36,910 nucleotides of DNA from Chthonomonadaceae bacterium (lineage in GTDB: Bacteria > Armatimonadota > Chthonomonadetes > Chthonomonadales > Chthonomonadaceae), in assembly GCA_025054835.1 (NCBI GenBank), contig JANWZQ010000118.1, forward strand, positions 1 to 36,910. Reading direction: 5' to 3'. Shown here piece by piece: positions 11,012 through 34,200 of the stretch. The first letter of the stretch is position 1. Each line of letters opens with the position of its first letter. The position numbers and the translations under genes were made by a program. The notes beneath the pieces are model-generated. The model was given only the letters and a program-made list of their open reading frames with translations. It searched no databases and had not been told where the DNA came from.

Positions 11012-13225
11012 TTATGCGACCCGGCGCAGGATACTTCGGCCGGAGCGCTTCAGCAACTCGGTCAGTTCTTCCGGTGGAATGGGCCGGCTAATCAGGAACC
11101 CCTGCAACGCGTCACAGCGATGTTGCCGGAGGAAGTCCAGTTGTTGCGGGGTGTCCACGCCTTCCGCGATCACAGTGATGTTAAGGCTGTGCGCGATATG
11201 GATGATCCCCCGGGTGATGGCTGCGCCCCGCGCATCGCTCTCGAGCGTGCGAATGAACGACCGGTCGATTTTCACCGTGTCGATAGGGAGTTGCTTCAGG
11301 TAGTTGAGGGACGAATAGCCGGTGCCGAAATCATCGAGGGCCAGCTGCACGCCGAGCGCTTTGATCCGGTGCAGAGTAGCCGCCATGTGATCCGCCTCTT
11401 GCATGGCCATGCTTTCCGTGATCTCCAGCTCCAGTACGTTCGGGGCGATCCCGGTTTCATACAGGACGTTGGAGATCCCGGCGATCAGGTCCGGTTGCTG
11501 GAACTGTCGTAGCGAGAGATTCACGGCTACACGCAACCCGGCGAATCCCTGCCGGGCCCACTGCCGGCACTGCTGGCATGCTGTGCGCACCACCCATTCG
11601 CCAATGGGCACGATCAGGCCTGTTTCCTCCGCCAGCGGGATGAAATCACCGGGCAGGACCATGCCTCTCTGGGGATGCTTCCATCGGAGCAGCGCTTCCA
11701 CACCGATTACCCGGCCCGAATGGACTTCGATCTGCGGCTGGTAGTAGAGCAGGAACTCGGAATGGGAGAGCGCTTTGTGTAGATCGGCCTCCAGACTGAT
11801 GCGCTCTGGCGTGTTCGGGGCCATACTGGGCAGGAACACCTGAAAGCGGTTGCGGCCGTGCGTCTTGGCCTGATACATGGCGATATCGGCATGCTTGAGC
11901 AGGAGCTCATAGTCCGTGCCGTCGTCCGGGAAGACACTGGCGCCGATGCTGGGCGTGACGTAGACCTCGTGGTGGTCCAGCAGGAAGGGAGCCTGTAGCG
12001 CGCCGATCAGCCGGCTGGCGATCCGGCTCAGGTCCTCGTGCCCGTTGATATCCGGGACCAGCAGGATGAACTCGTCGCCCCCCTGGCGTGCGATCATGTC
12101 GCCGTCGCGCATACAGGTCTGCAGGCGTTCGGCAACCAGTTTCAGCAGCTGGTCGCCCTGTTTGTGTCCCAGGCTTTCATTAATGTGCTTGAAGCGGTCC
12201 AGATCTAGCAGCAACACACCGACCTTGCGATGGTTGCGGTAGGCGCGCGCAATCGCCTGTGTAATCTTTTCGCGGAACAGATGCCGGTTGGGCAGACCGG
12301 TTAGCTGATCATGGTGTGCGAGGAAGGCAATCTGTTCCTCGGCCTGACGGTGTTGCGTCAGGTCGCGGGTGATGTTACAGAAACCTCGCAGGGCGCCGTT
12401 GGCGTCGCGCAGGGCCGTCAGCGTGTTGAGGGCGCGGAAGCGCGAACCGTCACGCCGCAGGCACCAGTCCTCATGTTCGGTGAAGCCATTCTTTTCCGCG
12501 CACTCCAGACGGCGCGCTGGAATGCCTGCGGTCACATCTTCGGGTGCGTAGAGCAGGGCGATGTGTCGGCCCAGAACCTCTTCCCCGCGGTAGCCCGAGA
12601 TGCGTTCTGCGCCACCGTTCCATGTGGTAATACGCCCGGCCGGGTCCAGCATCATGACCGCGTAGTCCTGCGCGCGTTCCGCAAACAGCTGGAAACGCTC
12701 CTCGCTCTGATGCAGCGCAGACTGCAGCGAGTGCACCTCGGATCGGCGTTCCATCTCCAGCAGGATCAGGGCACCGATTTCCTGCAGGCAGTGCTGCTGC
12801 GCGGCAGTAAGTCGACGGGGGCGTCGATCGAGAACAGCCAGAGAACCGAGTGTCCATCCGTCGGCCGTGCGTAGTGGCACGGTGGCGAAGAAACGCGCTT
12901 CCGGTTCGCCGAGTGCAGCACAGGCCTGCGCCAGTTCCGGACTGCTATCGGGTGTGAGGACCAGCAGCGATTTCGAGGACCACAGCAGGGCACTGCAGGG
13001 AGCAACGTCACGAGGCATCTCGGTAACGTCAAGGCCGTGACGAGCCTTGAACCACTGGCGCGTGCGGTCGATAAAACTGATGAAGGCAACGGGAACGTCA
13101 AGGAGCGTGGCTGCCAGCGAAGCCAGTCGATCGAAAGGCTCTTCCGGGGCTGTATCCAGTATCGCATAGCGTCTCAACGCCGCGAGACGGGCCGCTTCAT
13201 CGCCCGGTGGGCTGCAATGAGCCAT
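11012..13225 (-). CDS. GAF-PAS-GGDEF-EAL cyclic di-GMP synthase/phosphodiesterase
   Basis: A 737-residue cytoplasmic signalling enzyme with no membrane segment. Residues about 15-165 are a GAF domain (LRRYAILDTAPEEPFDRLA opening), 170-290 a PAS domain with PAC (FCNITRDLTQHRQAE), 300-460 a GGDEF domain and 475-725 an EAL domain. The GGDEF motif is intact (RQGGDEFIL, about residue 382), and an RDGD motif sits exactly five residues before it, the position of the inhibitory I-site. The EAL motif is intact (VEALLRWKHP), with LEITES, LDDFGTGYSSL and the late EGVDT motif. Both activities are therefore possible, and the net direction cannot be predicted. Its product could act on surface structures such as the pilus-like locus downstream (inference). 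It diverges from the DUF5722 gene and converges on the helicase gene. Confidence 0.93.
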   Translation of the reverse strand: MAHCSPPGDEAARLAALRRYAILDTAPEEPFDRLASLAATLLDVPVAFISFIDRTRQWFKARHGLDVTEMPRDVAPCSALLWSSKSLLVLTPDSSPELAQACAALGEPEARFFATVPLRTADGWTLGSLAVLDRRPRRLTAAQQHCLQEIGALILLEMERRSEVHSLQSALHQSEERFQLFAERAQDYAVMMLDPAGRITTWNGGAERISGYRGEEVLGRHIALLYAPEDVTAGIPARRLECAEKNGFTEHEDWCLRRDGSRFRALNTLTALRDANGALRGFCNITRDLTQHRQAEEQIAFLAHHDQLTGLPNRHLFREKITQAIARAYRNHRKVGVLLLDLDRFKHINESLGHKQGDQLLKLVAERLQTCMRDGDMIARQGGDEFILLVPDINGHEDLSRIASRLIGALQAPFLLDHHEVYVTPSIGASVFPDDGTDYELLLKHADIAMYQAKTHGRNRFQVFLPSMAPNTPERISLEADLHKALSHSEFLLYYQPQIEVHSGRVIGVEALLRWKHPQRGMVLPGDFIPLAEETGLIVPIGEWVVRTACQQCRQWARQGFAGLRVAVNLSLRQFQQPDLIAGISNVLYETGIAPNVLELEITESMAMQEADHMAATLHRIKALGVQLALDDFGTGYSSLNYLKQLPIDTVKIDRSFIRTLESDARGAAITRGIIHIAHSLNITVIAEGVDTPQQLDFLRQHRCDALQGFLISRPIPPEELTELLKRSGRSILRRVA

Positions 13226-20266: not shown

Positions 20267-21985
20267 ATGCTCGAGAGCCTCAAGCCTTTCTATCATCGAA
20301 GCAGTCATCTGGGGGAGCAGCTGGTTGCGGATGGGCATATCACGCAGGAGCAGCTGGAGGAAGCGCTCGCCCGGCAGGTTCAGCACAGGAAGCGGCTCGG
20401 AGAGACCCTGTTGCAGATGGGGTACATCTCCCCGGCCGTGCTGGGGCGCTATCTGGAGGCAGCAACCCGCTGTCAGTTCCTGGAACTGGCGGATTACCCC
20501 ATCGATTTCGAGGTCGCACAGCAGATCAACGAACAACGTGCGCGCCGGTTGCGCGCCCTACCGGTGCGCGACCGGGGCGAGGATGTGCTGGTTGCTATGT
20601 CAGATCCACTGGATCTGGCAGCTATTGATGAGCTGCAGGCTCTGCTCAATCGGCGTGTCACGCCCGTTCTGGTCTTCGAAGCCGATCTGAACGACGCGAT
20701 CAACCGGGTATTCGACGTGACCCGGCGTGCGCAGGGCATTATCGATGAGATCGGCAAGGAGAGCGCGCCGGCCTGGGAGATAGAAGAGAATGAGGACGAC
20801 CTGCTGGCCAGTGCACAGGAAGGGCCGGTCGTCCGGCTGGTCAACAGCATCATCGCGGGCGCGATCGCCTGCGATGCCAGCGACATCCACATCGAACCGC
20901 AGGAAGATCGGGTGCGGGTGCGCTATCGCATCGACGGGATCCTGGCTGATCAGATGACCATTCCCGTCAACTACCGCGCAGCAGTGATCTCGCGCATCAA
21001 GATCATGGCGCGCTGCAATATCGCGGAACGCCGCCGCCCGCAGGACGGGCGTATCCTCTTCAAAGGAAGTGGACGGGATAACGATCTGCGTGTTTCCATC
21101 ATGCCGACCGTCTTCGGGGAGAAGGCTGCCATTCGCATTCTGGAGCGCACCAAAACACTGAACAACTTGGAGCAGATGGGGTTCTTCCCGGAGCAGTACC
21201 GACTCTTCGATCATTTTATTCGGCGGCCACATGGCATGATACTGGTTACCGGCCCGACCGGGAGCGGCAAGAGTACCACTCTGCAGGCCGCGCTGGCCCG
21301 GATCAACAGCCCGGAGATCAATATCAGCACCATTGAGGATCCAGTTGAGTATCTGGTGCCCGGAGTCAACCACACACAGGTTGACCCGAAGATTGGCGTG
21401 ACATTCGCCAGCGGGTTGCGTACGCTGGTACGTCAGGACCCGGATGTCATCATGGTCGGTGAGATCCGGGATCGCGAAACGGCCGAGATCGCCATTCAGG
21501 CCGCATTGACCGGGCATCTGGTTTTCTCTACGCTGCACACCAACGATGCGCCCGGGGCCATCACCCGCCTGATCAACATGGGCGTGGAGCCCTTCCTGAT
21601 CGCTTCGGCGTTGCTGTGTAGTGTGGCACAGCGTCTGGTGCGCACAGTCTGTTCGTTCTGTCGAGAAGAGTTTCCCGCAACGGCATCCATGCTGGAAGCG
21701 CTCGGGGTGCCGCACACCGAGGGGTTCCAGCCCATGCTGGCTCGCGGTCGGGGATGCCCCAAGTGCGCGCAGCGTGGACTGAAAGGGCGCACTGCTGTGT
21801 TCGAAATCATGCCCATGACCGAAGAGATCCGGGAGCTGACCCTTCGGCGGGAGTCCAGTGCTGTGATCGGTGAGATGGCTCGTCGTCAGGGCATGAAGAC
21901 CATGCGTGAAATGGGAGTACGCAAGGTGCTGCAGGGGGTCACCACTATGGAGGAGGTGACGCGCGTGCTTTCGGCAGAGGAATAG
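20267..21985 (+). CDS. pilB: PilB/GspE-type assembly ATPase
   Basis: A 572-residue hexameric ATPase that powers subunit extrusion in type IV pili or type II secretion. Residues about 10-150 form an MshEN-type N-terminal domain (GEQLVADGHITQEQLEEAL, then LGETLLQMGYISPAVLGRYL), which in MshE and some PilB proteins binds cyclic di-GMP. The catalytic part has ASDIHIEPQ, Walker A GPTGSGKST (residues 329-337), an Asp box (TIEDPVEY), Walker B VIMVGEIRD (near 394) and a His box (GHLVFSTLHTNDA). A zinc-binding tetracysteine (CSFC near 462, CPKC near 497) is intact. It is the first gene of the locus, with AGGGG just before the ATG. A c-di-GMP enzyme is encoded 7 kb upstream. No PilT retraction ATPase is present. 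Confidence 0.95.
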   Translation: MLESLKPFYHRSSHLGEQLVADGHITQEQLEEALARQVQHRKRLGETLLQMGYISPAVLGRYLEAATRCQFLELADYPIDFEVAQQINEQRARRLRALPVRDRGEDVLVAMSDPLDLAAIDELQALLNRRVTPVLVFEADLNDAINRVFDVTRRAQGIIDEIGKESAPAWEIEENEDDLLASAQEGPVVRLVNSIIAGAIACDASDIHIEPQEDRVRVRYRIDGILADQMTIPVNYRAAVISRIKIMARCNIAERRRPQDGRILFKGSGRDNDLRVSIMPTVFGEKAAIRILERTKTLNNLEQMGFFPEQYRLFDHFIRRPHGMILVTGPTGSGKSTTLQAALARINSPEINISTIEDPVEYLVPGVNHTQVDPKIGVTFASGLRTLVRQDPDVIMVGEIRDRETAEIAIQAALTGHLVFSTLHTNDAPGAITRLINMGVEPFLIASALLCSVAQRLVRTVCSFCREEFPATASMLEALGVPHTEGFQPMLARGRGCPKCAQRGLKGRTAVFEIMPMTEEIRELTLRRESSAVIGEMARRQGMKTMREMGVRKVLQGVTTMEEVTRVLSAEE

Positions 21986-22074
21986 GGGCTACGGGGCGGG
22001 GGACCTGTGCGCTCTGGACAGCGGTTCCCGGGCCCGATGCGTATTCCCGGCAGCATCTCTGGAGTGTGACCGTA

Positions 22075-23304
22075 ATGCCAACCTACGCCTACACAGCGCG
22101 CGATCGTAATGGCAACCCGGTGCAGGGGGTTGTCATCAGTGCCGACATCGACACGGTACGTGAACTGCTGCGCGAGCGCGACCTGTTCCTGACCAGCGCC
22201 GTCGAGCAGGGAGGCGCACTGCCACAGGAGTCGACGGGGGTACGGGTGCGCCGCGGGCGACGCGTGCGCATCGGGGACATGGTGGTGATGAGCCGGCAGC
22301 TGGCTACTCTGGTGCGTGCCGGTCTGCCACTGAACGAGTGCCTGTATACCACGGCCCTGCAGAGTGAGAACCAGTACCTGCGCGATGTATTGCATCAGGT
22401 GCGACGCGATGTGCTGGGAGGAAGCAGCCTGGCTGAGGCTGTTGCCAGGCACCCGAACGTTTTCCCGGAGCTCTACGTAGCGCTGATCCGGGCCGGGGAA
22501 GCGGGAGGCGTTCTGGATGAAACGCTCGACATCGCCGCCGAGCAGTTCGACAAGGAAGCGGAACTGCGTGAGAAAGTGCGCTCTGCATTCATCTATCCTA
22601 TCATTGTGATTTGCGTGGCCATCTTCGTGGTAGGCTTCCTGATCCTGTTTGTTATCCCGCAATTCGACAAGGTATACCGGGCGTTCAACGCGCAGCTTCC
22701 GCTGGTGACCCTTGCGCTACTGCGTTTCAGCGCATTCGCGGTGAGCCCTCTGGGATTTCCTCTGTTGCTGGCACTGACGGTAGGGGGCTACGTGGCCGTA
22801 CGCCGGTACATCCGGACGCCGAAGGGACGTGAGCGCTGGGACCGCTTCAAAATCAACGTCTGGCTCTTCGGGCCATTGAATCGCAAGGTTGCGATCGCCC
22901 GGCTGACACGGACGCTCTCCGCTATGGTACGGTCCGGCGTGCCCATTCTGCAGGCCCTGGCGATCTCTTCACGGGTCGCCAACAACGTCATCATCATGAC
23001 CGCTATGAACCGGGTAGCGGAGTTCGTGCAGCAGGGCTCCCGGCTCTGGATGCCCATGGAGCAGACCGGTGAGTTCCCTCCGATTGTGACCCGAATGATT
23101 GCTGCTGGAGAGGAGTCGGGCAATCTGGATGAGATGCTGACCGAGCTCACACGCTTCTATGATCGGGACATTGAGTACACGGTGCAGAAGCTAACACGGC
23201 TGCTGGAGCCTGCCCTGACAGTACTGATCGGGGGAGTTGTGTTGTTCGTGCTGCTGGCCCTCTACATGCCTATCTTCAACCTGACCAACGTGTTGCGACG
23301 GTAG
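22075..23304 (+). CDS. pilC: PilC/GspF-type inner-membrane platform protein
   Basis: A 409-residue inner-membrane protein on which the assembly ATPase acts. The N-terminus MPTYAYTARDRNGNPVQG is the classic start of the PilC/GspF family, which is why I take ATG 22075 (GGAG about 10 nt upstream) rather than GTG 22066. Two T2SSF domains are visible: the first around MSRQLATLVRAGLPLNECL with the later LIRAGEAGGVLDETL, the second around LTRTLSAMVRSGVPILQAL with MIAAGEESGNLDEML. Three membrane segments follow the usual places (about residues 175-200, 220-240 and 375-400), and the C-terminus ends in LYMPIFNLTNVLRR. Spacing to the ATPase gene is about 90 bases, with no terminator between them. Confidence 0.95.
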   Translation: MPTYAYTARDRNGNPVQGVVISADIDTVRELLRERDLFLTSAVEQGGALPQESTGVRVRRGRRVRIGDMVVMSRQLATLVRAGLPLNECLYTTALQSENQYLRDVLHQVRRDVLGGSSLAEAVARHPNVFPELYVALIRAGEAGGVLDETLDIAAEQFDKEAELREKVRSAFIYPIIVICVAIFVVGFLILFVIPQFDKVYRAFNAQLPLVTLALLRFSAFAVSPLGFPLLLALTVGGYVAVRRYIRTPKGRERWDRFKINVWLFGPLNRKVAIARLTRTLSAMVRSGVPILQALAISSRVANNVIIMTAMNRVAEFVQQGSRLWMPMEQTGEFPPIVTRMIAAGEESGNLDEMLTELTRFYDRDIEYTVQKLTRLLEPALTVLIGGVVLFVLLALYMPIFNLTNVLRR

Positions 23305-23420: not shown

Positions 23421-25091
23421 ATGGAAGATCAGGCGACAATGCATGCACGTAGTAGCACCGCATATCGGGGGGTAGCGCTGATCTACGCGCTGGTAGCGGT
23501 CCTGGTTATCTCTGTGCTGGTGCTGGGCGTCGGCCGGCTTGTGAGCTTTCATGCTGTCTCGGAGAGCACTGCGCAGGGCTATGCCCGTGCGATCTACTGT
23601 GCAGAAGCGGCTGCCGCATGGCAGATGGCCCGTATGTCCCGGTGCAACCTGCCGGGCGCACCTGCCGTGTCGGGACGGCTTCCATGGGAAGTTGTGAACA
23701 CATGGAATGAGGCCAGCAACCGGCCGGAGCCCTACGTTGGGCCTCTGCCTGCTTCCGATCTGGGGACCTCTTTCGAGGGGACCGTGAAGGTCTGGGTGAA
23801 AAGCGCGGCTCTGGGGGGTGTCTGGACGGCTCCGGAGGACTTTGTGCTCTTCGCGATCGGCACAGACCCGGTCACGGGGATACAACGGGGCATTACGCTC
23901 AATGGGACGGGAACGGGACTCGGAGATCAGTATGCCCTGTTTGCGCAGGGTACGTTGTTGTTCGAAAGCCTGCCACTGACGCCGGGCAGTACGGGGGTGG
24001 CGTTGCTGAAGATGGGCTACATCGGAGCTAACGGGAGTGTGGCTTTTAATACGCGAGGGGCTCCACCACAGGCCCAGCTTCCTTCCCAAGGGGGACTCTT
24101 CTTCGGATGTCGCCTGGGACCGGATGCCGTGCTGCAACCGGGAGCGGGCGCCTGGACTGCCGGATGGGATATCCCCCGGCTGCCTGATGTGATGCGCTGG
24201 CCTACTATCGAGGATGTGCTGGCCTACGTCTGGAAGGGACGCACGCCTGCACAGGCAGCGGCATTGAACGACAATGTGCAGATCCAGTATCGCAACGCAG
24301 ATGGTACCTTCTCCAGCTTTTCGCCCCCGCCACGCCAGTTAACAGCCGCCGAGTTCGATCGTTCAACCAGCCGCCCCTATCGGACAATCCGCATCAGAGC
24401 ACGTCTCGATGCGCCGCATCACAACCTGATCTATCTGGAGAACATTCGGATGCGGAGCACCGATGTGCTGATCCTCGACCTGCGTAAAGAGTTCAACGAT
24501 GATCGTCCGACCGGCATCCGGATCCTGATCCATAACCCTGCGCTTGGTGCCAATGAGGGGCCGGTGATCACCAATCTGGCTTACTTCGAGACAGAAAACA
24601 GCCTGGCTCCGGGCGACCAGAGAGCGCAGTCGCCCTCCTACATCTGGTTCAATAATACCAGTCAACCACTGACCTATCGCCCGCACCTGGCTCTGCAGGA
24701 ACTGGACCGCCCTCCTGCGGAAGATCCCGATGACTGGAACAGTGCCAACTATCGCTATCGGATACGACCCTCTTTGCGCGGGCTGGTGTACGGCATGGCG
24801 GCCCTGCCTGCTCCGGATGCCGGGAGCGTTGTGATCGAGGGAGATCCAGCCGCACCGGCCGGGGGAGCTACAATCCAGTCTGTGGTTGCCAACCGGATCG
24901 TAGTGCGGGGCAGGGTGACAGTGAACAACGCGGAGCCGGTCGAGAGCGCCCGGGACCGCCATCGGTATGTCCTGTACTACCGGGTGAAGTCTCGTTCCCG
25001 GGGAGAAATCCTGCCGAATTTCACCCCGGACAATCCGGGATTCCCCATGGAACGAGGGCCGGTCTATGACTACGGGCCCTTTGTGCCCTGA
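23421..25091 (+). CDS. Large PilX/GspK-like pseudopilin
   Basis: A 556-residue protein with an N-terminal prepilin-like segment: YRG then VALIYALVAVLVISVLVLGV, so cleavage after Gly17 would leave a hydrophobic helix whose fifth residue is Tyr, not Glu. Lack of Glu5 is the hallmark of GspK-type pseudopilins; PilX-N domain proteins share the RGVALI opening. At 556 residues it is far larger than PilX (about 170-200) and larger than GspK (about 300). The C-terminal 500 residues are beta-rich with Pro/Gly loops and resemble no domain I know. It precedes two smaller pseudopilin genes in the K-I-J-like order of a T2SS tip complex, so it probably sits at the pilus or pseudopilus tip. The start ATG 23421 is preceded by AGGA. 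Confidence 0.75.
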   Translation: MEDQATMHARSSTAYRGVALIYALVAVLVISVLVLGVGRLVSFHAVSESTAQGYARAIYCAEAAAAWQMARMSRCNLPGAPAVSGRLPWEVVNTWNEASNRPEPYVGPLPASDLGTSFEGTVKVWVKSAALGGVWTAPEDFVLFAIGTDPVTGIQRGITLNGTGTGLGDQYALFAQGTLLFESLPLTPGSTGVALLKMGYIGANGSVAFNTRGAPPQAQLPSQGGLFFGCRLGPDAVLQPGAGAWTAGWDIPRLPDVMRWPTIEDVLAYVWKGRTPAQAAALNDNVQIQYRNADGTFSSFSPPPRQLTAAEFDRSTSRPYRTIRIRARLDAPHHNLIYLENIRMRSTDVLILDLRKEFNDDRPTGIRILIHNPALGANEGPVITNLAYFETENSLAPGDQRAQSPSYIWFNNTSQPLTYRPHLALQELDRPPAEDPDDWNSANYRYRIRPSLRGLVYGMAALPAPDAGSVVIEGDPAAPAGGATIQSVVANRIVVRGRVTVNNAEPVESARDRHRYVLYYRVKSRSRGEILPNFTPDNPGFPMERGPVYDYGPFVP

Positions 25092-25100
25092 GGGATTGCG

Positions 25101-25625
25101 GTGCGCAACAGAACAATCAACTTGCGTGCTATGCGGCGTGGGGCTACACTGACCGAGGTGTTGATGGCAACTGCCATCGTTAGCGTGTCGCTGATCGGTC
25201 TGGTCTCCTCGTGGCTCTACATGGTCAGCAGCGCCATCACCACGGACGAGCGAGCTGCTGGATACATCTGCGCGCGCACCACGCTGGAGCGTGCCAAAAT
25301 CAACGGCTTCTTCGTGAACATGCCGGTCACACAGTCGTCGCCGGTGCCTGGCAACAGCCGTAGCCGCTGGACGACACCCAATCTGCAGGCTGTGCGCTTC
25401 TTCGATGAGAACCTCGAAGAGATGAACACCACAGATCGGCAACGCCCTCCGGCGCTGTACGCTCGCTATCGCGTGCACACGTTGATCCATTTCTCGCCTC
25501 CCGGCACTTACCCGCCCGGCCGGGATGATCTGCGCATCATGACGATCACAGTGATTGCCTACCACAACAAGCGGAATGTGGAGCTGGCGCGCATGCAGAC
25601 CTGCATGGTGCAGGGGGGGATCTAA
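25101..25625 (+). CDS. Type IV prepilin-like protein (PilV/GspI-like)
   Basis: A 174-residue minor pseudopilin. The class III signal is clear: basic leader MRNRTINLRAMRRG, cleavage after Gly14, then ATLTEVLMATAIVSVSLIGL with Glu at mature position 5 (Glu19). The remainder is a short globular domain with the pair of Cys residues (YICARTTLERAK and MQTCMVQ) that could form a disulfide. Length and position between the large K-like and the J/W-like protein fit GspI or PilV. The GTG start at 25101 has GAGGG 6 nt before it; ATG 25131 would leave only three residues before the cleavage site and is unlikely. It follows the previous stop by 9 bases and is probably translationally coupled. Confidence 0.85.
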   Translation: MRNRTINLRAMRRGATLTEVLMATAIVSVSLIGLVSSWLYMVSSAITTDERAAGYICARTTLERAKINGFFVNMPVTQSSPVPGNSRSRWTTPNLQAVRFFDENLEEMNTTDRQRPPALYARYRVHTLIHFSPPGTYPPGRDDLRIMTITVIAYHNKRNVELARMQTCMVQGGI

Positions 25626-25626
25626 C

Positions 25627-26361
25627 ATGGAGTGCGCCGGCTGGAAGCATATCACGGGAGCGCATCGGGGGCGCGCACGCGCTGGCCTATCTACCCCGGA
25701 ACTGCTGGTAGTGTTGCTGGTTCTCATCATGATTGTGGGGGCCGTGTTCGCGTTGTTCCGGGCATCCTGGCAGTCTTACGACAATCTGGTGTGGCAGACC
25801 CGGGTCAATCTGGAGGCGCGCCAGTCACTGGATGATATCTGCGATATGCTGCGTACAGCAGGCAACAACATCGATATGACCTGGCCATCGCCCATGAGCG
25901 AAGGGCAGGTCGATCCGATCAGTACCCCGAACCGGCTCACGTTTCTCACAGCCGGCCTGGGCTACGTGAACTACCGGGTGTTCTCCAGTGTGCGTGAGCG
26001 GAACAATTTCCTGACACGCTGGCCGGGAGCCAGCATGGCGGCCCGGCGCAAGGTGGGGCAGTTCATCCGCGCAGTCGAATTCGAGTACGAGTACCGGCTT
26101 CCAGCGACCGGTAGCACGGACCGTACGTGGCGTTTCGTACGGGTGAGTCACCCGGCGTTGAACCCTCTCGCCCCGGATGCAAGTTTTCTGGCGACGACGG
26201 TCTATGTAACCGTGCATGCGGAGGCCAGGCCTTACGGGGATAACGGACCGATCTACCGACGAAGCCTGACGGGCGCGGTGCGCCTGCGCGGGCCCCACGG
26301 GTTGATCATGCCTCCTGCTGTATATACCAATGTGCCACGTCCTCCAGAGACGGTGGAGTGA
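25627..26361 (+). CDS. Type IV prepilin-like protein (PilW/GspJ-like)
   Basis: A 244-residue minor pseudopilin. After a 20-residue leader ending RARAG comes LSTPELLVVLLVLIMIVGAV, giving Glu at mature position 5 (Glu25). The globular part starts with a long amphipathic helix (WQSYDNLVWQTRVNLEARQSLDDICDML), as in GspJ and PilW, then a beta-rich domain ending in RSLTGAVRLRG. ATG 25627 comes one base after the stop of the preceding pseudopilin gene, with a G-rich ribosome binding site inside that gene's end. With the two genes before it, it would make the initiating tip complex of the pilus or pseudopilus. Confidence 0.83.
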   Translation: MECAGWKHITGAHRGRARAGLSTPELLVVLLVLIMIVGAVFALFRASWQSYDNLVWQTRVNLEARQSLDDICDMLRTAGNNIDMTWPSPMSEGQVDPISTPNRLTFLTAGLGYVNYRVFSSVRERNNFLTRWPGASMAARRKVGQFIRAVEFEYEYRLPATGSTDRTWRFVRVSHPALNPLAPDASFLATTVYVTVHAEARPYGDNGPIYRRSLTGAVRLRGPHGLIMPPAVYTNVPRPPETVE

Positions 26362-26368
26362 GGGAGCG

Positions 26369-28087
26369 ATGGCAAGCCTGAGAAGAGCGGTACTGGGGAT
26401 CGAAATTGGCCTCAACGAAGTCCGGATGGTAGAACTCCGTGGCGGCCCGGTGCCGCAGGTACTGAAAGTGGGCTCTGTGCCATTACCTGCAGGGGCAGTG
26501 GATAACGAGCGGGTCATTCAGACCGAGGTTGTCGCGGATATTATCCGGGGATTGCATAGCCGGAGCGGTTATCGCGCGCGCACTGCTGTGGTCGGGATGG
26601 GGGTGCAGGGCGTGGTCACACGTATTCTGGCCATCCCCCGCGTCCCGGACTCCGAGCTGCGCTTCGTGCTGGAGGGAGAACTGGCACACTACCAGATTTT
26701 GCGCACGGGCACCGGAGTGTTCGACTACTTCCGTCTGGACACAGCAGCCGGCGAAGATAATCTGCCCTCAGTGCTGCTCATGGCCGCCGAGGAACGTGTG
26801 GCCATCACATATCGTCTGGCTGTGGAGCGTGCCGGGTTGCAGGTGCTGGCGCTGGAACCAAGCACGATCGGCCTGTTCCGGGTCGCTTACCCGATGCTGG
26901 AGGCACAACCGGCCGCGCTCTGCCTGGCCATCACGCCGCAACGCAGCGAGCTCTCCATTCTCGATCACGGGCAGATCCGGCTCTATCGTCGTCTGGAGAC
27001 AGGCAGTAACGATTTCATCCGGGGGCGCAGGAGCGCGCCAGTCTACACTGCGGGGCCGGTCAATCTGGCTGCAGACCCACCTGTGGAGGACCCTGCAGGC
27101 TACGTTCGGGTGCGCACGCCATTGAACCCGGACGACGACACCGCTGAGCTGGAAGAAAAGGACATTCCGGGCAGCTCCGGGAGTGGCAGCGGGCCTCTCC
27201 CTCCACTGGGTGGCGCCGTACAGGGCGAGATCATACCGCAGATTGCCCTGTCGCTGGCAAACGAGGTCCAACGATCGCTGGACTACTACCAGAGAGAGTT
27301 CCCCAACGCGCCGGCAGTCAGCCGGATTGTGGTGGCGACCAATGACCCGGAGGCCGGGCCAATCACGGAATGGTTGGCGCAAACCCTGCGCATGGAGGCG
27401 CGCCTGGTAGAGATGCCCGTGGATCCGGGGCTATCGGGTGAGGTGGCCACGCAGCTCAGCCCGCCACACGGGTTGAAGTATCTGGGCGCAGTGGGGCTGG
27501 CGATGCAGGCTGTAACGGCCGACTGGCGGCATGTGCCCCGCTTCAATCTATCGCCGGGTGTGCAGGCCACGGTCGCTCCGGTAGAGCGTGACCGCCTGAC
27601 CGTTGTGTTAATTGCCTCTCTCTGTGTGCTGGCAGGCGGTCTCTTCTCCGGATACCTGTTCAACCGGCAGGCACAGACAACCAACGCGCAGGTCGAGGCG
27701 TTGCGCACCACGCTCGGAGTGACCCGGCAGAACTATCGCGAGCTGGAGAAACGGATCCTCGATGAGCAGACCCTCGGGTGGATCGTGAAGAGTGACAATC
27801 TGCCAGTGCCCTCAATCCTGGATCTGGTGACCCAGCGAATGCCAGAAGGAGTCGGGCTGACGGCCATGCACATCCAGCGCAACGGGCACATCGTGATCGA
27901 GGGCAACGCCCGGAGCGAGCAGGACTTCAATATCTACTACGCCAATATCATTACCTGTCCGCACTTTGTCTATCCGCGGTTCCAGAACATCTCGACCGAC
28001 CCGAAGACGCGTATTACCAGGTTTCGGATTGAGACAAGCCTTGCAGGCACGCAGGATGCGTTGACCCACCGCGGCGGCACGCTCTAG
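26369..28087 (+). CDS. pilM: PilM-PilN fusion protein (GspL-like architecture)
   Basis: A 572-residue fusion. Residues 1 to about 375 are the actin-like PilM ATPase: GIEIGLNEVRMVEL (phosphate-1 region), AVVGMGVQGVVTRIL, FVLEGELAHYQ and LALEPSTIGLFR are family landmarks. A Gly/Ser/Pro-rich insertion lies near residues 260-285. From about 390 the sequence becomes PilN: the motif RFNLSP (Phe392 onward) matches the conserved N-terminal INLLP peptide, then one membrane segment (about 410-431), a coiled coil (NAQVEALRTTLGVTRQNYRELEK is its start) and a ferredoxin-like periplasmic domain. In classic type IV pilus systems PilM and PilN are separate and PilN's peptide docks into PilM; the fused form is the layout of GspL. 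AGGGAG lies 2-3 nt before ATG 26369, and only 7 bases separate it from the preceding stop. Confidence 0.88.
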   Translation: MASLRRAVLGIEIGLNEVRMVELRGGPVPQVLKVGSVPLPAGAVDNERVIQTEVVADIIRGLHSRSGYRARTAVVGMGVQGVVTRILAIPRVPDSELRFVLEGELAHYQILRTGTGVFDYFRLDTAAGEDNLPSVLLMAAEERVAITYRLAVERAGLQVLALEPSTIGLFRVAYPMLEAQPAALCLAITPQRSELSILDHGQIRLYRRLETGSNDFIRGRRSAPVYTAGPVNLAADPPVEDPAGYVRVRTPLNPDDDTAELEEKDIPGSSGSGSGPLPPLGGAVQGEIIPQIALSLANEVQRSLDYYQREFPNAPAVSRIVVATNDPEAGPITEWLAQTLRMEARLVEMPVDPGLSGEVATQLSPPHGLKYLGAVGLAMQAVTADWRHVPRFNLSPGVQATVAPVERDRLTVVLIASLCVLAGGLFSGYLFNRQAQTTNAQVEALRTTLGVTRQNYRELEKRILDEQTLGWIVKSDNLPVPSILDLVTQRMPEGVGLTAMHIQRNGHIVIEGNARSEQDFNIYYANIITCPHFVYPRFQNISTDPKTRITRFRIETSLAGTQDALTHRGGTL

Positions 28088-28166: not shown

Positions 28167-28889
28167 ATGTCCCGTGTTAACTGGATGAATATTGCTACGG
28201 GAGCCGTGCTGGTGGTCAGTCTGCTGTTCGCCTTTGCGTACGGCTGGTATCAGTGGGGGCACGCCCAGCGCGCACGGCAGGCTCAGGAGGAGGTGCGTCG
28301 GCAGGTGGCTCTGGCGGAGCGGGAACTGATGGCGCGTCGGGAAAGCTACCGAACAACGCTCGGGAAGATCGCAGCGCCGGACACGCGGGAAGAGGATGCG
28401 GCTTTTCTGAACACGTTGCAGGTGTTGATGGCGGCGTCCGGGGTCAAGCAGGTGCAGATGGATCGGGCGCGTGTGGAGCCGTTACCGTCCATCACGCGCG
28501 TTACCGGTGCAAATACGGCTGGCTCTGCGCCCGCAGATGCAAACACGCCCCCGGAGCCCTCGATCACCAACCTGCCACTGGGCGTGCGTGCTATCGCAAC
28601 CAATCTGGTAGTACAGGGGACTTTATCCAGCATTCGTCTGTTTCTGTATCAGCTACAGAGCCTGCGCTATCGCTCCCGCGCCGTCAATGTCAACAGCCTG
28701 CAGATCTCTCTGCTGGATGACAGGGGCACGCTACGCGCCTCGATGATGCTGACGCGCTTCGTCCGCCCTGAGAGCGACCCGCTTCGGCCGATTGGTGCCG
28801 AGGAGGACACGGGTCTGACGCGCCTGCCGCAGTCCTCTCCGGCTATCGAGATGAGTCGACCCGATACGCCCGCGCAGACCGGGCCATGA
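28167..28889 (+). CDS. pilO: PilO/GspM-like inner-membrane protein
   Basis: A 240-residue bitopic protein: one membrane segment (about residues 8-28, ATGAVLVVSLLFAFAYGW), a coiled-coil stretch (AQEEVRRQVALAERELMARRE) and a periplasmic ferredoxin-like domain with the strand LVVQGTLSSIRLFLYQLQSL, which is characteristic of PilO and GspM. A Pro/Ala linker (residues about 115-135) interrupts the domain, and the C-terminal tail is Pro-rich. It is expected to dimerise with the PilN half of the preceding fusion and connect the cytoplasmic PilM part to the secretin. It follows the fusion gene by 79 bases that include a short GC hairpin, with no obvious ribosome binding site before ATG 28167. Confidence 0.85.
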   Translation: MSRVNWMNIATGAVLVVSLLFAFAYGWYQWGHAQRARQAQEEVRRQVALAERELMARRESYRTTLGKIAAPDTREEDAAFLNTLQVLMAASGVKQVQMDRARVEPLPSITRVTGANTAGSAPADANTPPEPSITNLPLGVRAIATNLVVQGTLSSIRLFLYQLQSLRYRSRAVNVNSLQISLLDDRGTLRASMMLTRFVRPESDPLRPIGAEEDTGLTRLPQSSPAIEMSRPDTPAQTGP

Positions 28890-28930
28890 GCAGGAAGGGG
28901 AACTCGCCCGTTTTTCGGAGGAAGAGAGAC

Positions 28931-30880
28931 ATGATGTGTTATCGCTATTTCGGGCAGGCCACTCTATGCTGCGCGCTCTGTGCAGGGGCATTGCTTCCCA
29001 GCGTCGCGGGGCAGGTACAGCCTGCACGTCGGAGCAATCCAGGGCGGATACTCCCCCGGATGGTGTTCAATACGGATGTGGCACGCATCCTCACCATGCT
29101 CGCCCGAAGGGCCAACGCCGGGATCGTACTGTCCGATGAAGTCAAAGGGACTTTGCGGACCGACCTGAGCGGCATGACCGCAGAGGATGCCTTCCGCCTG
29201 GTGACAGCGCAGGCCGGCCTGGCATACCGCAGGATCGGCGACGTCTTCGTGGTCGCTCCACCATCCGCGCTCAAAAGCGTGCTGGCCAGTTTCCTGACAG
29301 GTCGGGAGGAACGCGTTGCGTTGCAGCATGTGCTACCAGCAACAGCCGCACAACAGCTGGAGGCCGTCGTGCCCTATGTGACAGTGCGTCCCGTGGGGCG
29401 GGGAGTACAGCTGCTGGGTGCACCGGAGGATCTGGCGCGTGCCCGGGACCTGCTTCTGGAGATCGATACCCCCCCTGCGAAGGCCGAGCCCCTTGCCAGC
29501 GCATCGGTCACGCTCACGTACGCGCCGGCGGAAGATATCGAAAAGGTACTGACCGGTCAGTTCCCGGGCCTGAAGGCGCAGAAGGTCGGGGAGAACGCAG
29601 TGGCATTTACCGGGACGCGCGATGAGGTGGAGCGCGCCCGGGAATTCATCCGGGATCTGGATCGTGGCAAGGAGGCCAATGCCCGTTATGCGATCTATCG
29701 GGTCAAGTACGCCAGCCCCTTCTCGCTGGCGGAGAGCCTGCGTGCCACGCTCAAGACGCTCACTGTTGCTTCCGGCCCGGACACTTACTACATTCCGCCG
29801 GCACAGCTGCGCTTGCTGTCGGCTCAATCTCTGGGCATGGGCATGGGTGCTGGCGGTTTCGGTGCGGGTATGGGTGGCTTCGGTGGCGGCATGGGCGCAG
29901 GTGGCTTCGGCGGTGTTCCGGCCATGGGCGGTATGGGCGCGGGTGGTCTCGGTGCGGGCATGGGTGGCATGGGTGCTGGCGGTTTCGGTGCGGGTATGGG
30001 TGGCTTCGGTGGCGGCATGGGCGCAGGTGGCTTCGGCGGTTTCGGACTCGGGGAGCGCGCCCGCACTCTGATCCTCGGGGGGCCTGAGGACGTGGTGCAG
30101 GCGGCACTGAAGCTGGCCGAGAACCTGGATAAGCCGACACCGCAGGTTGTGCTGGACGTGAAGGTGGTCAGCGCGAACCCGCAGGTCACGCAGAGCCTGG
30201 GCATCGATTGGTCCAACAACGGGCAGGGCAATAGCATTTCTGTCAACACCCAGATCTTCGAGCGTCCCAACACTCAGGCCAGTGATGTACCGAATACGCC
30301 CCTGTTGCGCAGAGACTTCGGCTTTGGCGGTTTCGGCCGGCTGCCCCTCCAGTTCTCTGCAACTCTGAACGCATTCTTCAACCGCACTGACGTCAAGATC
30401 CTGGCCAAGCCCACTATCACCGCACTGGACAATGAGCCGGGTGTGGTGTTCGTGGGCGAGACCCGGCGGGTGAGCGTCTCTGCGATCCCCGGGATACCGG
30501 GCACTGGAGGGAACAATATCATCCTGAACAATGTGGTGGAGATTCCGGTCGGCATCATTCTGCAGATGCGCCCCCGCGTGAACGAGGACAATCTGATTAC
30601 CTTGCATGTGCACCCTATCTACTCTTCCATCGGGAGCATCGACCCGCGCACCGGTCTGTTCAGCACGTTCCAGCGTGAGGCGGATACCACGGTGCGCGTG
30701 CGTAGCGGCGAGACGATCGTGATTGGAGGACTGCTTCAGGAGGAGGAGACCCGGACTCTGGTCAAGGTGCCTATTCTTGGCGATATCCCGTTGATCGGTC
30801 AGTTCTTCCGTAACACTACCCGCGCGCAACTGCGGCGCGAAGTGCTGGTGTTTGTGACGCCCCACCTTAAAAACGATTGA
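28931..30880 (+). CDS. pilQ: PilQ/GspD-type secretin with a Gly/Met-rich insert
   Basis: A 649-residue outer-membrane secretin subunit. I choose ATG 28931, which has GGAGG 9 nt upstream and starts a signal peptide (MMCYRYFGQATLCCALCAG then LLPSVAGQ); an in-frame ATG at 28886, overlapping the previous stop, would bury that signal. Residues about 40-120 are an STN/N0-type domain (FNTDVARILTMLARRANAGI), followed by N1-like repeats (VTLTYAPAEDIEKVLTG and YRVKYASPFSLAESL). Residues about 302-374 are almost only Gly, Met, Phe and Ala. The secretin core follows, with VVLDVKVVSANPQ and the signature VRVRSGETIVIGGLLQ, ending in PILGDIPLIGQFFRNTT and EVLVFVTPHL. The Gly/Met block lies in the N-domain loop, at a position other secretins also vary. 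No pilotin gene is visible. Confidence 0.93.
   Translation: MMCYRYFGQATLCCALCAGALLPSVAGQVQPARRSNPGRILPRMVFNTDVARILTMLARRANAGIVLSDEVKGTLRTDLSGMTAEDAFRLVTAQAGLAYRRIGDVFVVAPPSALKSVLASFLTGREERVALQHVLPATAAQQLEAVVPYVTVRPVGRGVQLLGAPEDLARARDLLLEIDTPPAKAEPLASASVTLTYAPAEDIEKVLTGQFPGLKAQKVGENAVAFTGTRDEVERAREFIRDLDRGKEANARYAIYRVKYASPFSLAESLRATLKTLTVASGPDTYYIPPAQLRLLSAQSLGMGMGAGGFGAGMGGFGGGMGAGGFGGVPAMGGMGAGGLGAGMGGMGAGGFGAGMGGFGGGMGAGGFGGFGLGERARTLILGGPEDVVQAALKLAENLDKPTPQVVLDVKVVSANPQVTQSLGIDWSNNGQGNSISVNTQIFERPNTQASDVPNTPLLRRDFGFGGFGRLPLQFSATLNAFFNRTDVKILAKPTITALDNEPGVVFVGETRRVSVSAIPGIPGTGGNNIILNNVVEIPVGIILQMRPRVNEDNLITLHVHPIYSSIGSIDPRTGLFSTFQREADTTVRVRSGETIVIGGLLQEEETRTLVKVPILGDIPLIGQFFRNTTRAQLRREVLVFVTPHLKND
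29840..30040 (+). repeat. 75-bp perfect direct repeat inside the secretin gene
   Basis: Bases 29840-29914 and 29966-30040 are identical over 75 bases, spaced by 126 bases (42 codons), so they are in frame. They encode Gly/Met/Phe/Ala-rich peptide, and the spacer between them is made of similar shorter units. The perfect identity indicates recent slippage or recombination, and strains probably differ in copy number. Confidence 0.9.
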
Positions 30881-30920
30881 CGGATTGCGGTTCAGGGGCT
30901 GCGGTCAGGAATTTATCGCG

Positions 30921-31727
30921 ATGCAGAACCAGTCGAACGATACGCCCAGGATCATCGGGCTGCTGATCGCCATCGTGGCGGTGCTCGCGTATGTCATCTG
31001 GCAGTATGTGCGGGCAACCCGTCCGGCGGAGGCGCGAGATGTGCGAGTCCCGACGGTATCGGAGAACTCGCAGCGCGCGGCCACCGGGAGTGCGCCCGCG
31101 CAGGTCGCCACGGCAATTGGAGCCGGGATCAATCCAAACGCAGGACCGGGGCAAATGCGCTACTTCAGTGAGGTGCTCGACAGCGAAATGGGCACCAACA
31201 TCGCTCCCGGTCGGCCCGATGCGTTCCGACAGTTCAAGCCTCCCGCGGAGCGCAGTGCACCGGTTGTAACACCGACGCGGATCCCGGCAGGGGAGGTAAC
31301 ACTGCCGCGCAGAGATGAAGCATTTCGCCTGCCCCCCTTGCCTGCACCGGGGCAGAATGAGACGCCTGCAGGGGGTATGCCTGCTGTGGTCAATTCGGTG
31401 GAGATCAAGCTGGATGGTGTGGTACTCGGCAATTCGCCAGAAGCTGTGCTCACTATCGTGCGACGGTCGTCAGAGGGCCCGGACACGGAAGGAGAAAGGA
31501 CGCTCTATCTGCGCGTCGGTGATCGTCTTCCTTTCGGCAGGCATCGCATCGTCCAGATCACCGAAGCGGGCCTGATCCTGCAGGGATGGCCCGAGATCTG
31601 GACCGTCGGGCAGACCCGGTCCTTCAACGTCAGAGCGGGGCAGTCCTCAGAAACCGGCAACCGACCGTCGGTGCGTCTACCTTCCGGCCTGATGTCCACG
31701 TTGCCGCCACCCTCGCTGACACCATAG
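30921..31727 (+). CDS. PilP/GspC-like membrane-anchored protein
   Basis: A 268-residue bitopic protein: a short cytoplasmic N-terminus, one membrane segment (IIGLLIAIVAVLAYVIWQYV, about residues 11-30), a long Pro/Ala-rich linker, and a compact beta domain near residues 160-240 (VEIKLDGVVLGNSPEAVL, then LYLRVGDRLPFGRHRIVQI and ILQGWPEIWTV). That strand order, with a 'GVVLGN...A' strand and a 'VGD.L....IVQI' strand, is that of the homology region of GspC and of PilP, which contacts the secretin N0 domain. PilP is usually a lipoprotein; here a membrane helix and no lipobox make it more GspC-like. ATG 30921 has AGGA 10 nt upstream; it follows the secretin stop by 40 bases. Family identity is recognised by pattern only. 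Confidence 0.65.
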   Translation: MQNQSNDTPRIIGLLIAIVAVLAYVIWQYVRATRPAEARDVRVPTVSENSQRAATGSAPAQVATAIGAGINPNAGPGQMRYFSEVLDSEMGTNIAPGRPDAFRQFKPPAERSAPVVTPTRIPAGEVTLPRRDEAFRLPPLPAPGQNETPAGGMPAVVNSVEIKLDGVVLGNSPEAVLTIVRRSSEGPDTEGERTLYLRVGDRLPFGRHRIVQITEAGLILQGWPEIWTVGQTRSFNVRAGQSSETGNRPSVRLPSGLMSTLPPPSLTP

Positions 31728-31752: not shown

Positions 31753-34200
31753 GTGTCGGTCGTCCATCGTGAACTGAACCGCCTGGAAGTCCTGCGCGGG
31801 TTGCGCGTGGCCACGTGGGAGGCTGCCTTTGCCAATATCTGGGTAACGCTAACTACCGGCGCTTTTCTAACCGGTTTTGCGCTCTGGCTGGGTGCCGGCG
31901 ACGTCGAGGTCAGCCTGCTGAGCGCCATACCTACGTTTGCAGGACTGGTGCAGTTTGTCTCCTCCTACTTCGGGGAGCGCTTGCCGGCGCGCAAGCCCTT
32001 CTGCGCCTGGTTCCTGATGGCCGGTCGCGGTCTCTGGGTGCTGATCCTGCTGCTGCCTTATCTTCTGGGACCCTCGCGTTCCCTCTATCCCTTCCTGGTA
32101 CTGTATCTTCTCTCCTACGTAGCCATCAACATCCCGATGCCGGCTTACATGGCGTGGATGTCGGACCTGGTGCCGGCAGACCATCGCGGGCGCTATTTTG
32201 GCCGGCGCAATATGATTGCCGGCGGGGCAGGTATGCTGGTCGGCCTGCCAGCAGCCTGGTTCCTGGATTGGACAACCCGGAAGACGCATCAGGAGGCGCT
32301 CGGATTTGCGGTCCTGTTCGGCGTGGCGGTAGCCGGGGCTGTTGCGGCTCTGGTCTGTATGTTGCGCCAGCCAGAACCTCCTGGAAGGAACACAGGAGTT
32401 AGCGGGGACAGGTTGCAGGGGACGGAGGGGGTTCTGGCATACTATCGAGCGCCTTTTGCGGACCGCAACTTTCGCCGGTTGATCATGTTCAATGTAGTCC
32501 TGGGTCTGGGACAGTTTCTCGCTGCCCCATTCTTCACGGTGTATGCCCTGCAGTCCCTGCAGCTCAACTATGTGACGCTGCAACTGCTCTCGGTGCTCAC
32601 CAGCATCACCGGTCTGGGCTCGATGCCAGTGTGGGGGTATCTGGCAGACAGGTTCGGCAACAAGCCGTTGCTGGGCATCAGCGTGTTCGGCACCGTGCTG
32701 CTGCCGCTGTACTGGGTCTTTGCGACGCCGGATAATCCCGGCGTGATGATGGTGCTGCTGGTGATCAATCACCTTTCTGGAGGGGCCTCGTGGGCAGGCG
32801 TTGGCCTGATGCAGTTCAATCTACTGATCCGGATGAGCCCTGCGGAAAAGACTGCTGTCTACGTGGCCACTATGTCGGCGGTTACCGGGTTGACCGGAGG
32901 TCTGGCTCCACTCGCCGGGGGCGTGTTGATGAACGCGCTGGTTCACTGGCGGAGCACGTTGCTGGGGATCGAGTGGACCAACTTTCATGTCACTTTTCTG
33001 GCGGCCTCCGTGCTGCGGGTTGTGGCGCTCGGCTTTCTGCGCCCGCTGGTGGACGCGCAGGCAGCCTCGGCACGCGATGTGCTACAGCAGCTGACCCGTG
33101 CGGATCTGCGAGCATGGCTCCATATCCGGCGTCTGCAAGGGGGGAGCGGGTTGGAGGCACGTCGGCGTGCGACCGAAGCGCTGGGAGAGTCACGGACGCA
33201 ACTGGCTGTGAGTGAACTGACGACGGCGCTAACGGACCCGGCGCCTGCGGTACGCGAGGAGGCTGCGCGGGCACTGGGCGAGATCGGTGATCCTGCGGCT
33301 GTCGAGGCGCTAACCGCCGCTCTGATGGATCCTGCAGCGGGTATCGTAGGACCGGCAGCGGACGCGCTGGCCCGGATTGGCGATCGACGGGCTGTGCCTG
33401 CGCTGATCACTCTGCTAGAGGCTCCGGAAGGCACTGTGTCTCCTCTGGACTCTCTGGCGGTCATCCGGGCGCTGGGCGCACTCGGTGGGACAGAAGCAGC
33501 AGGCACTCTGACCCGGCTTCTGGAGCAGACGCAGGATCCTGAGATCGCGGAAGCGCTGGCACGTGCGCTCGGGGAGGCCGGAGAACCGGAGACCGCGCAG
33601 GCATTGATCCGATTTCTACAGTTCCGGCAACCGCCAGAAGGGGTACGCATGGCGATTGTCCATGCACTTGGCCAGCTCGGGGCAGCAGAGGCCGGTCCTG
33701 TGCTGCGACAGGAACTGCAGGCCTGTCCTGCCGATAGCCGATTGCTGCCGGTTGTCGCAGAGGCGCTGGCCAGACTTCAGGATCGTGCGGCGCTTCCTCT
33801 CCTGGTGGCGCATCTGGCCCGAAGCTCAACGCCATTGAGCCGTAAGCAAATTGCCCTGGCAATCGGGATGCTGCTACAGGCCAGTGAGGCCCTGTATACC
33901 CTGCTCACGCAGGAGGAGTTCGCCCGGGATGAGATGGTCGCCCGCATGATAGAGGAGTTACGACGTCGATGGCGCGCAGGCCCGGATGTACCGGCGCTGG
34001 AGAACGCGTTGGCGGCCTACATCCGGGAGGAATACCGGGAATGTGTACGGGCTCTGGAGGCTGCAGACCGTCAGATGGCTGCAGATAAACGGCCCGATGA
34101 GGCCTTACAAACGCTCCGGGCACTCTGTGCGCAGGATGCTCTCCCTGTTGAGGGGGCACTGGTCGGGTTGATCGCGTTGCGGTGTCGCGTGGACGCGTAA
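31753..34200 (+). CDS. MFS-type transporter fused to HEAT repeats
   Basis: An 815-residue two-part protein. Residues 1 to about 440 hold about 12 hydrophobic segments with major facilitator features: the loop 2-3-like SYFGERLPARKPF, the stretch SDLVPADHRGRYFGRRN and the loop 8-9-like GYLADRFGNKPLL. Residues about 462-700 are HEAT or PBS-lyase-type helical repeats, with units such as AVREEAARALGEIGDPAAVE and GPAADALARIGDRRAVPALI; the last 100 residues are helical and less regular. The HEAT domain should lie in the cytoplasm, where it could bind a partner or gate the transporter. The substrate is unknown. The GTG start at 31753 has only a weak ribosome binding site and follows the PilP-like gene by 25 bases, so it may be read through from the pilus locus. 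Confidence 0.88.
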   Translation: MSVVHRELNRLEVLRGLRVATWEAAFANIWVTLTTGAFLTGFALWLGAGDVEVSLLSAIPTFAGLVQFVSSYFGERLPARKPFCAWFLMAGRGLWVLILLLPYLLGPSRSLYPFLVLYLLSYVAINIPMPAYMAWMSDLVPADHRGRYFGRRNMIAGGAGMLVGLPAAWFLDWTTRKTHQEALGFAVLFGVAVAGAVAALVCMLRQPEPPGRNTGVSGDRLQGTEGVLAYYRAPFADRNFRRLIMFNVVLGLGQFLAAPFFTVYALQSLQLNYVTLQLLSVLTSITGLGSMPVWGYLADRFGNKPLLGISVFGTVLLPLYWVFATPDNPGVMMVLLVINHLSGGASWAGVGLMQFNLLIRMSPAEKTAVYVATMSAVTGLTGGLAPLAGGVLMNALVHWRSTLLGIEWTNFHVTFLAASVLRVVALGFLRPLVDAQAASARDVLQQLTRADLRAWLHIRRLQGGSGLEARRRATEALGESRTQLAVSELTTALTDPAPAVREEAARALGEIGDPAAVEALTAALMDPAAGIVGPAADALARIGDRRAVPALITLLEAPEGTVSPLDSLAVIRALGALGGTEAAGTLTRLLEQTQDPEIAEALARALGEAGEPETAQALIRFLQFRQPPEGVRMAIVHALGQLGAAEAGPVLRQELQACPADSRLLPVVAEALARLQDRAALPLLVAHLARSSTPLSRKQIALAIGMLLQASEALYTLLTQEEFARDEMVARMIEELRRRWRAGPDVPALENALAAYIREEYRECVRALEAADRQMAADKRPDEALQTLRALCAQDALPVEGALVGLIALRCRVDA

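Follow-up and report, generated by a model that had tools for sequence, protein, structure and literature searches.

GspL/PulL has been described as a fusion of PilM and PilN (PMC6325625), and a phylogenomic study assigned type II secretion systems (T2SS) to the Armatimonadetes (PMC6668835). GspL consists of an actin-like cytoplasmic domain, an [ND]L-type motif, one transmembrane (TM) helix and an (alpha-beta-beta)x2 periplasmic domain, it has no intact nucleotide signatures, and its gene adjoins gspM in an operon with the E, F, pseudopilin, D and C genes. In type IVa pili, PilM with its complete fold and PilN with its Pfam domain and INLLP-like motif are two proteins. The Amuc_1101 family of the Verrucomicrobiota (NF045709) combines a full-size PilM part and a following PilN part in one model, of which positions 1-353 align to separate PilM and positions 358-514 to separate PilN. 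In the Aeromonas MSHA locus, PilM-, PilN-, PilO-, secretin-, MshE- and GspF-type genes are clustered, but the parts resembling PilM and PilN are separate open reading frames (ORFs), and MshI was therefore rejected as a known example of a fusion in a type IV pilus (T4P).

The window, by which we mean the whole stretch of 36,910 nucleotides of Chthonomonadaceae DNA that was analysed, encodes a fused PilM-PilN (GspL-like) protein of 572 residues at 26369..28087 (+). The preliminary description had placed both proteins in one open frame without frameshift, and the fusion is confirmed as real, the product being one protein: all 572 codons are open with neither stops nor frameshifts in the translation, the ATG at 26369 has its own Shine-Dalgarno sequence directly 5' (GGAGTGAGGGAGCG), and two Pfam domains exceed their cut-offs in the same chain (PilM_2, PF11104, 56.2 bits at residues 10-203, cut-off 27; PilN, PF05137, 32.5 bits at residues 483-557, cut-off 22.8). 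The C-terminal half thus matches a PilN profile, as had been proposed as a check. The whole protein was modelled with AlphaFold2 from a four-row alignment (mean pLDDT 66, mostly 70-90 in the PilM half and below 50 in the TM and long helices), and the actin-like domain, the TM helix and the ferredoxin-like periplasmic domain are all found in one chain. The cytoplasmic half (residues 1-388, 26369..27532 (+)) is predicted to be a complete PilM/FtsA-like fold, which VIA-align matches to Thermus PilM (2ych) with Z 30.1 over 316 residues and to the cytoplasmic domain of EpsL (1yf5) with Z 14.2. It is followed by the RFNLSP motif (residues 391-396, 27539..27556 (+)), by a TM helix at the hydropathy maximum (about residues 410-428, 27596..27652 (+)) and by a long helix, a probable coiled coil modelled with low confidence (residues 429-470, 27653..27778 (+)). 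The model contains one helix from 407 to 470 and then the order alpha-beta-beta-alpha-beta-beta at residues 480-558 (27806..28042 (+)). This periplasmic domain adopts the same topology when folded alone (pLDDT 75) and resembles PulL (5hl8, Z 11.8; 8a9w, Z 10.9), PilO (2rjz, Z 11.0) and XcpY (5n7l, Z 10.7) more closely than PilN (4bhq, Z 7.6). According to these Z scores the cytoplasmic half is PilM-like, and the periplasmic half is at least as GspL-like as PilN-like. The anatomy claimed earlier, namely motif, single TM helix, long helix, periplasmic domain and insert, was thus recovered from the sequence and the model. The Gly/Ser/Pro/Asp-rich insert itself (about residues 222-284, 27032..27220 (+)) is present. 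It is predicted to be disordered (pLDDT about 30, unstructured in the model) and is not conserved: three relatives have a shorter version or none, as in a lineage-variable loop.

Fusions of this kind were surveyed in 151 Armatimonadota genomes. Among the 150 PilN matches listed, 75 lie in frames of at least 390 residues and 75 in shorter frames, and all long-frame loci fetched from other genomes (60/60) turned out to be PilM-PilN fusions followed by a PilO-like gene; in the four fetched fusions checked with Pfam both domains were over their cut-offs. The fusion is therefore common throughout the phylum, alongside separate PilM/PilN pairs. A scan of contigs from named genomes gave three relatives, of which two carry Armatimonadota names, and a tblastn search of plasmids with P0001 gave no match. 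In the PilM tree we distinguish the window class (class I), shortened fusions (class B) and the remaining fusions (class C). All fusions may go back to a single event: the topology test does not reject a tree in which one branch sets apart all separate PilMs (p-AU 0.88). Because the class labels were set after viewing the tree, motif counts broken down by class serve as description and do not test a prior hypothesis. The pattern [ILVFM][ND][LFM] within 45 residues before the TM helix is present in 24 of the 29 window-class proteins (3.2 expected after shuffling), and the same form precedes the TM helix in 22/27 class-C (2.2 after shuffling) and 10/26 class-B proteins (3.4). The recurrence of the layout, in the 60 fusions and in the motif of the window class, exceeds what chance would give. 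However, bona fide GspLs carry similar sequences at this position (ANLLQG in Aeromonas ExeL, RFDLMAG in Paracoccus, RYDMLHG in Escherichia coli). The docking motif that had been attributed to PilN is thus present, as a counterpart of both the PilN INLLP and the GspL NLLQG, but it does not mark PilN over GspL.

The protein shares with type IVa PilM and PilN the complete PilM fold, the PilN Pfam domain and the INLLP-like motif, but it is one chain in an operon without PilT, its nucleotide signatures are lost, and the motif is internal and not at the N-terminus of a separate polypeptide. TIGR01175 (PilM) gives 75 bits at a cut-off of 133. With NF045709 (cut-off 650 bits) no match to the window protein is obtained at E 0.1; Amuc_1101 aligns best to class-C fusions, and its locus context is unlike the window operon. 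Concerning GspL, the cytoplasmic half differs in being a full-size PilM-like domain of about 385 residues including the insert, compared with 238 residues in EpsL 1yf5. A search of the host genome with the cytoplasmic GspL profile PF05134 (T2SSL) finds nothing at E 1, and the class-B relative L075 passes it with 30.7 bits. In profile-profile comparison with four GspLs, all proteobacterial, the window class is more distant (E 0.0019) than the separate PilMs are (E 5.7e-5). Judged by its sequence, the window protein is outside the sequence-defined GspL family. By analogy of layout, it probably works like GspL nevertheless.

The name "PilM half" requires a qualifier, because the fold is PilM-like but the nucleotide-binding signatures are gone. 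Three aligned signatures were scored, GxDxG, DxG and GG, with an alignment that is least certain for class B. Where they are expected, the window protein has GIEIG, LAIT and ATND, and none of the three is present in any of the 29 window-class rows. The rows labelled as split retain GxDxG and GG in 28/32 each and the strict DxG in 16/32, with NxG in many others. Two of the exceptions for GxDxG and GG, L119 and L013, are actually fusions, or probably so, that contig ends interrupt, and they were left out of one PilM tree and yet counted among the 32 split rows; the others are truncated or divergent. Among the fusions, all three signatures are retained in 8/26 class-C and 0/26 class-B rows. We infer from the alignment that the window class lost the nucleotide-binding signatures yet kept the full-size PilM fold. 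With all recognisable signatures gone, the cytoplasmic half is probably a scaffold or lever like that of GspL and not an ATP-binding PilM.

The fused gene lies within a series of genes on the + strand. It starts with a GspE/PilB-type ATPase at 20267..21985, placed by profile matches and the ATPase tree, with an MshEN N-terminus of the c-di-GMP type (NF053729, 61 bits, over the cut-off). About 7 kb upstream of this ATPase a PAS-GGDEF-EAL protein is encoded at 11012-13225 (-), and c-di-GMP regulation is possible. The ATPase is followed by a GspF/PilC-type platform protein at 22066..23304, for which the GspF model is best, and by three candidate minor pilins. The first, at 23421..25091, is a weak GspK/PilX-like candidate (TIGR02523, E 0.019; NF037980 GspK, E 0.063) with an N-terminal hydrophobic segment; it is unusually long, with 556 residues and no Pfam match. 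The second, at 25101..25625, is GspI/PilV-like (motif G/ATLTEVLM; N_methyl E 0.0044, below the cut-off), and the third, at 25627..26361, is GspJ/PilW-like (motif G/LSTPELLV; no Pfam match). Downstream of the fused gene there are a GspM/PilO-like bitopic protein at 28167..28889 (GspL_C E 0.0039, below the cut-off), a secretin at 28886..30880 (GspD 189 bits, PilQ 165 bits, neither reaching its cut-off) and a GspC/PilP-like protein with an N-terminal TM segment at 30885..31727 (T2SSC E 0.048, weak). The secretin has a Gly/Met-rich insert, and about residues 315-390 of its N-terminal half form a tandem repeat rich in Gly, Met and Phe, GMGAGGFGAGMGGFGGGMG... Directly past the operon, at 31753-34200 (+), an ORF of 815 residues combines an MFS transporter domain with C-terminal HEAT repeats. 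The order GspE-GspF-minor pilins-[PilM-PilN]-GspM/PilO-secretin-GspC-like is also seen in relatives, and in several of these GspG-like pilins are encoded between the F gene and the fused gene. In three loci of relatives, 2-3 tandem near-copies of a GspG-like pilin are found upstream of the fused gene (L128:340-2547, L121:300-1354, L036:1077-2841).

In our judgement, the window protein likely serves a divergent T2SS-like (pseudopilus) machine of the Armatimonadota as its GspL-type inner-membrane platform subunit. It is encoded with E, F, pseudopilin, M, D and C genes in a conserved order and without PilT, although the C, M and pilin profiles are weak. The GspF and GspD models outscore their T4P counterparts for the platform protein and the secretin, and no PilT-type ATPase is encoded on the contigs C201 (the window), C199 and C127 of the host genome. 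The best matches of the periplasmic domain to PulL, PilO and XcpY, the GspL-like motif before the TM helix, both Pfam domains in one ORF, the loss of the signatures in 29/29 rows, the published description of GspL as a fusion and the reported T2SS of the Armatimonadetes all point in the same direction. In this respect the GspL layout proposed for the protein stands. Against this reading are the missing PF05134 match, the profile distance from GspL and a cytoplasmic fold much closer to PilM than to EpsL. In addition, the GspE and PilB models tie on the operon ATPase (599.6 against 598.1 bits), the curated T2SS equivalog cut-offs are missed (GspE 599.6 of 630, GspF 372 of 424, GspD 189 of 351 bits), no major pseudopilin is encoded in the window operon, and in the ATPase tree the operon ATPase does not group with proteobacterial GspE. 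In that tree the window clade (100/99) is distinct from a T4P clade and from another one with class-B and class-C loci (97/97), with an uncertain branching order among the three.

The tie between the two ATPase models and the MshEN domain would also suit the platform of a type IV pilus that does not retract but serves adhesion under c-di-GMP control, like MSHA, in which case the fusion would have arisen or persisted in a T4P lineage. Amuc_1101, itself a PilM-PilN fusion, sits in a pilus-like locus of the Verrucomicrobiota, and of the fused classes the window class lies nearest to the separate PilMs of T4P systems in the PilM tree. A pilus of this kind is nevertheless rather unlikely, because PilT is absent from the contig, the gene order is T2SS-like, the GspF, GspD and GspG models are preferred, and the same genome has a separate PilB-PilT and PilM set. 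Of that set, a PilB-like ATPase adjoins a PilT of 504 bits on contig C58, and a T4P-type PilM on contig C35 (162 bits, cut-off 133), cut by the contig end, is unfused and belongs to a class distinct from that of the window; in the relative G013 a PilM of the C35 type is followed by a separate PilN. For the secretin on contig C200 the PilQ model is preferred, and it may belong to the T4P of the C35-type PilM. With a T2SS-like operon, a contig without PilT, an unfused T4P-type PilM in the same genome, fusions throughout the phylum and a similar motif in GspLs, the earlier view of the fusion as an oddity among type IV pili finds no support. The 3.7-Mb host genome encodes five extension-type ATPases, at least five PilT-like or further T2SSE-type matches, four secretins and 13 H-X9-DG prepilins, and thus contains several parallel type IV filament machines.

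The fusion could also be merely genetic, if an internal start or proteolysis released a functional PilM and a functional PilN from the one ORF. In-frame GTG and ATG codons are indeed found near the junction, at residues 375, 379 and 389. However, none of the in-frame ATG, GTG and TTG codons in the junction (residues 369-420) has a clear Shine-Dalgarno sequence, and the single-chain layout is retained throughout the window class, which makes two products very improbable. That an assembly artefact joined two genes has a negligible chance: the draft host genome comprises 202 contigs and one of its three fused loci is apparently split across the contig ends C127/C165, but it has two fused loci besides that of the window (the other being the divergent copy on C199, whose PilN part passes the Pfam cut-off in one search and misses it in another), and the recurrence in other genomes, with 60/60 verified fusions and some single-contig assemblies, refutes this reading.

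For the GspL-type subunit of a T2SS-like machine, the working of the protein can be sketched from GspL. The cytoplasmic half would bind the GspE-type ATPase by the N-terminal region of the latter and so keep this region at the membrane. Motion of the ATPase would be passed along the TM helix and the long helix into the periplasmic domain, and this domain would pair with the downstream GspM/PilO-like protein and contact the pseudopilins. The RFNLSP segment probably docks in the INLLP-binding groove of PilM, either in cis or in an adjacent protomer, and the disordered insert would be a tolerated surface loop. The covalent link would couple the two halves at 1:1. A stoichiometry fixed in this way is sound in principle, but it is no peculiarity of this protein because it is already true of GspL.

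Given the known GspL layout, the secretion-type operon and the occurrence throughout the phylum, the fusion is largely ordinary. Taken as a single finding its message is modest: the GspL layout reaches a divergent T2SS-like lineage that Pfam labels PilM and PilN. Some class-C fusions keep the full-size fold and the signatures, such as L090, L070 and L094, in which all three signatures are intact and which match the FtsA and Amuc_1101 profiles. As far as can be read from their sequences, these fusions are possible intermediates between PilM plus PilN and GspL. We suggest only tentatively that the Armatimonadota hold living intermediates of the whole transition, from separate proteins with signatures through full-size fusions with and without them to shortened fusions without them. 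If this order is right, the joining of the two proteins preceded the loss of ATP binding and of part of the fold, which may have happened twice, in paralogous machines that share one cell. This touches two open questions, whether PilM needs to bind ATP and how GspL originated from PilM and PilN, and for both of them the separate, fused-with-signature, fused-without-signature and shortened forms within one phylum would be natural constructs.
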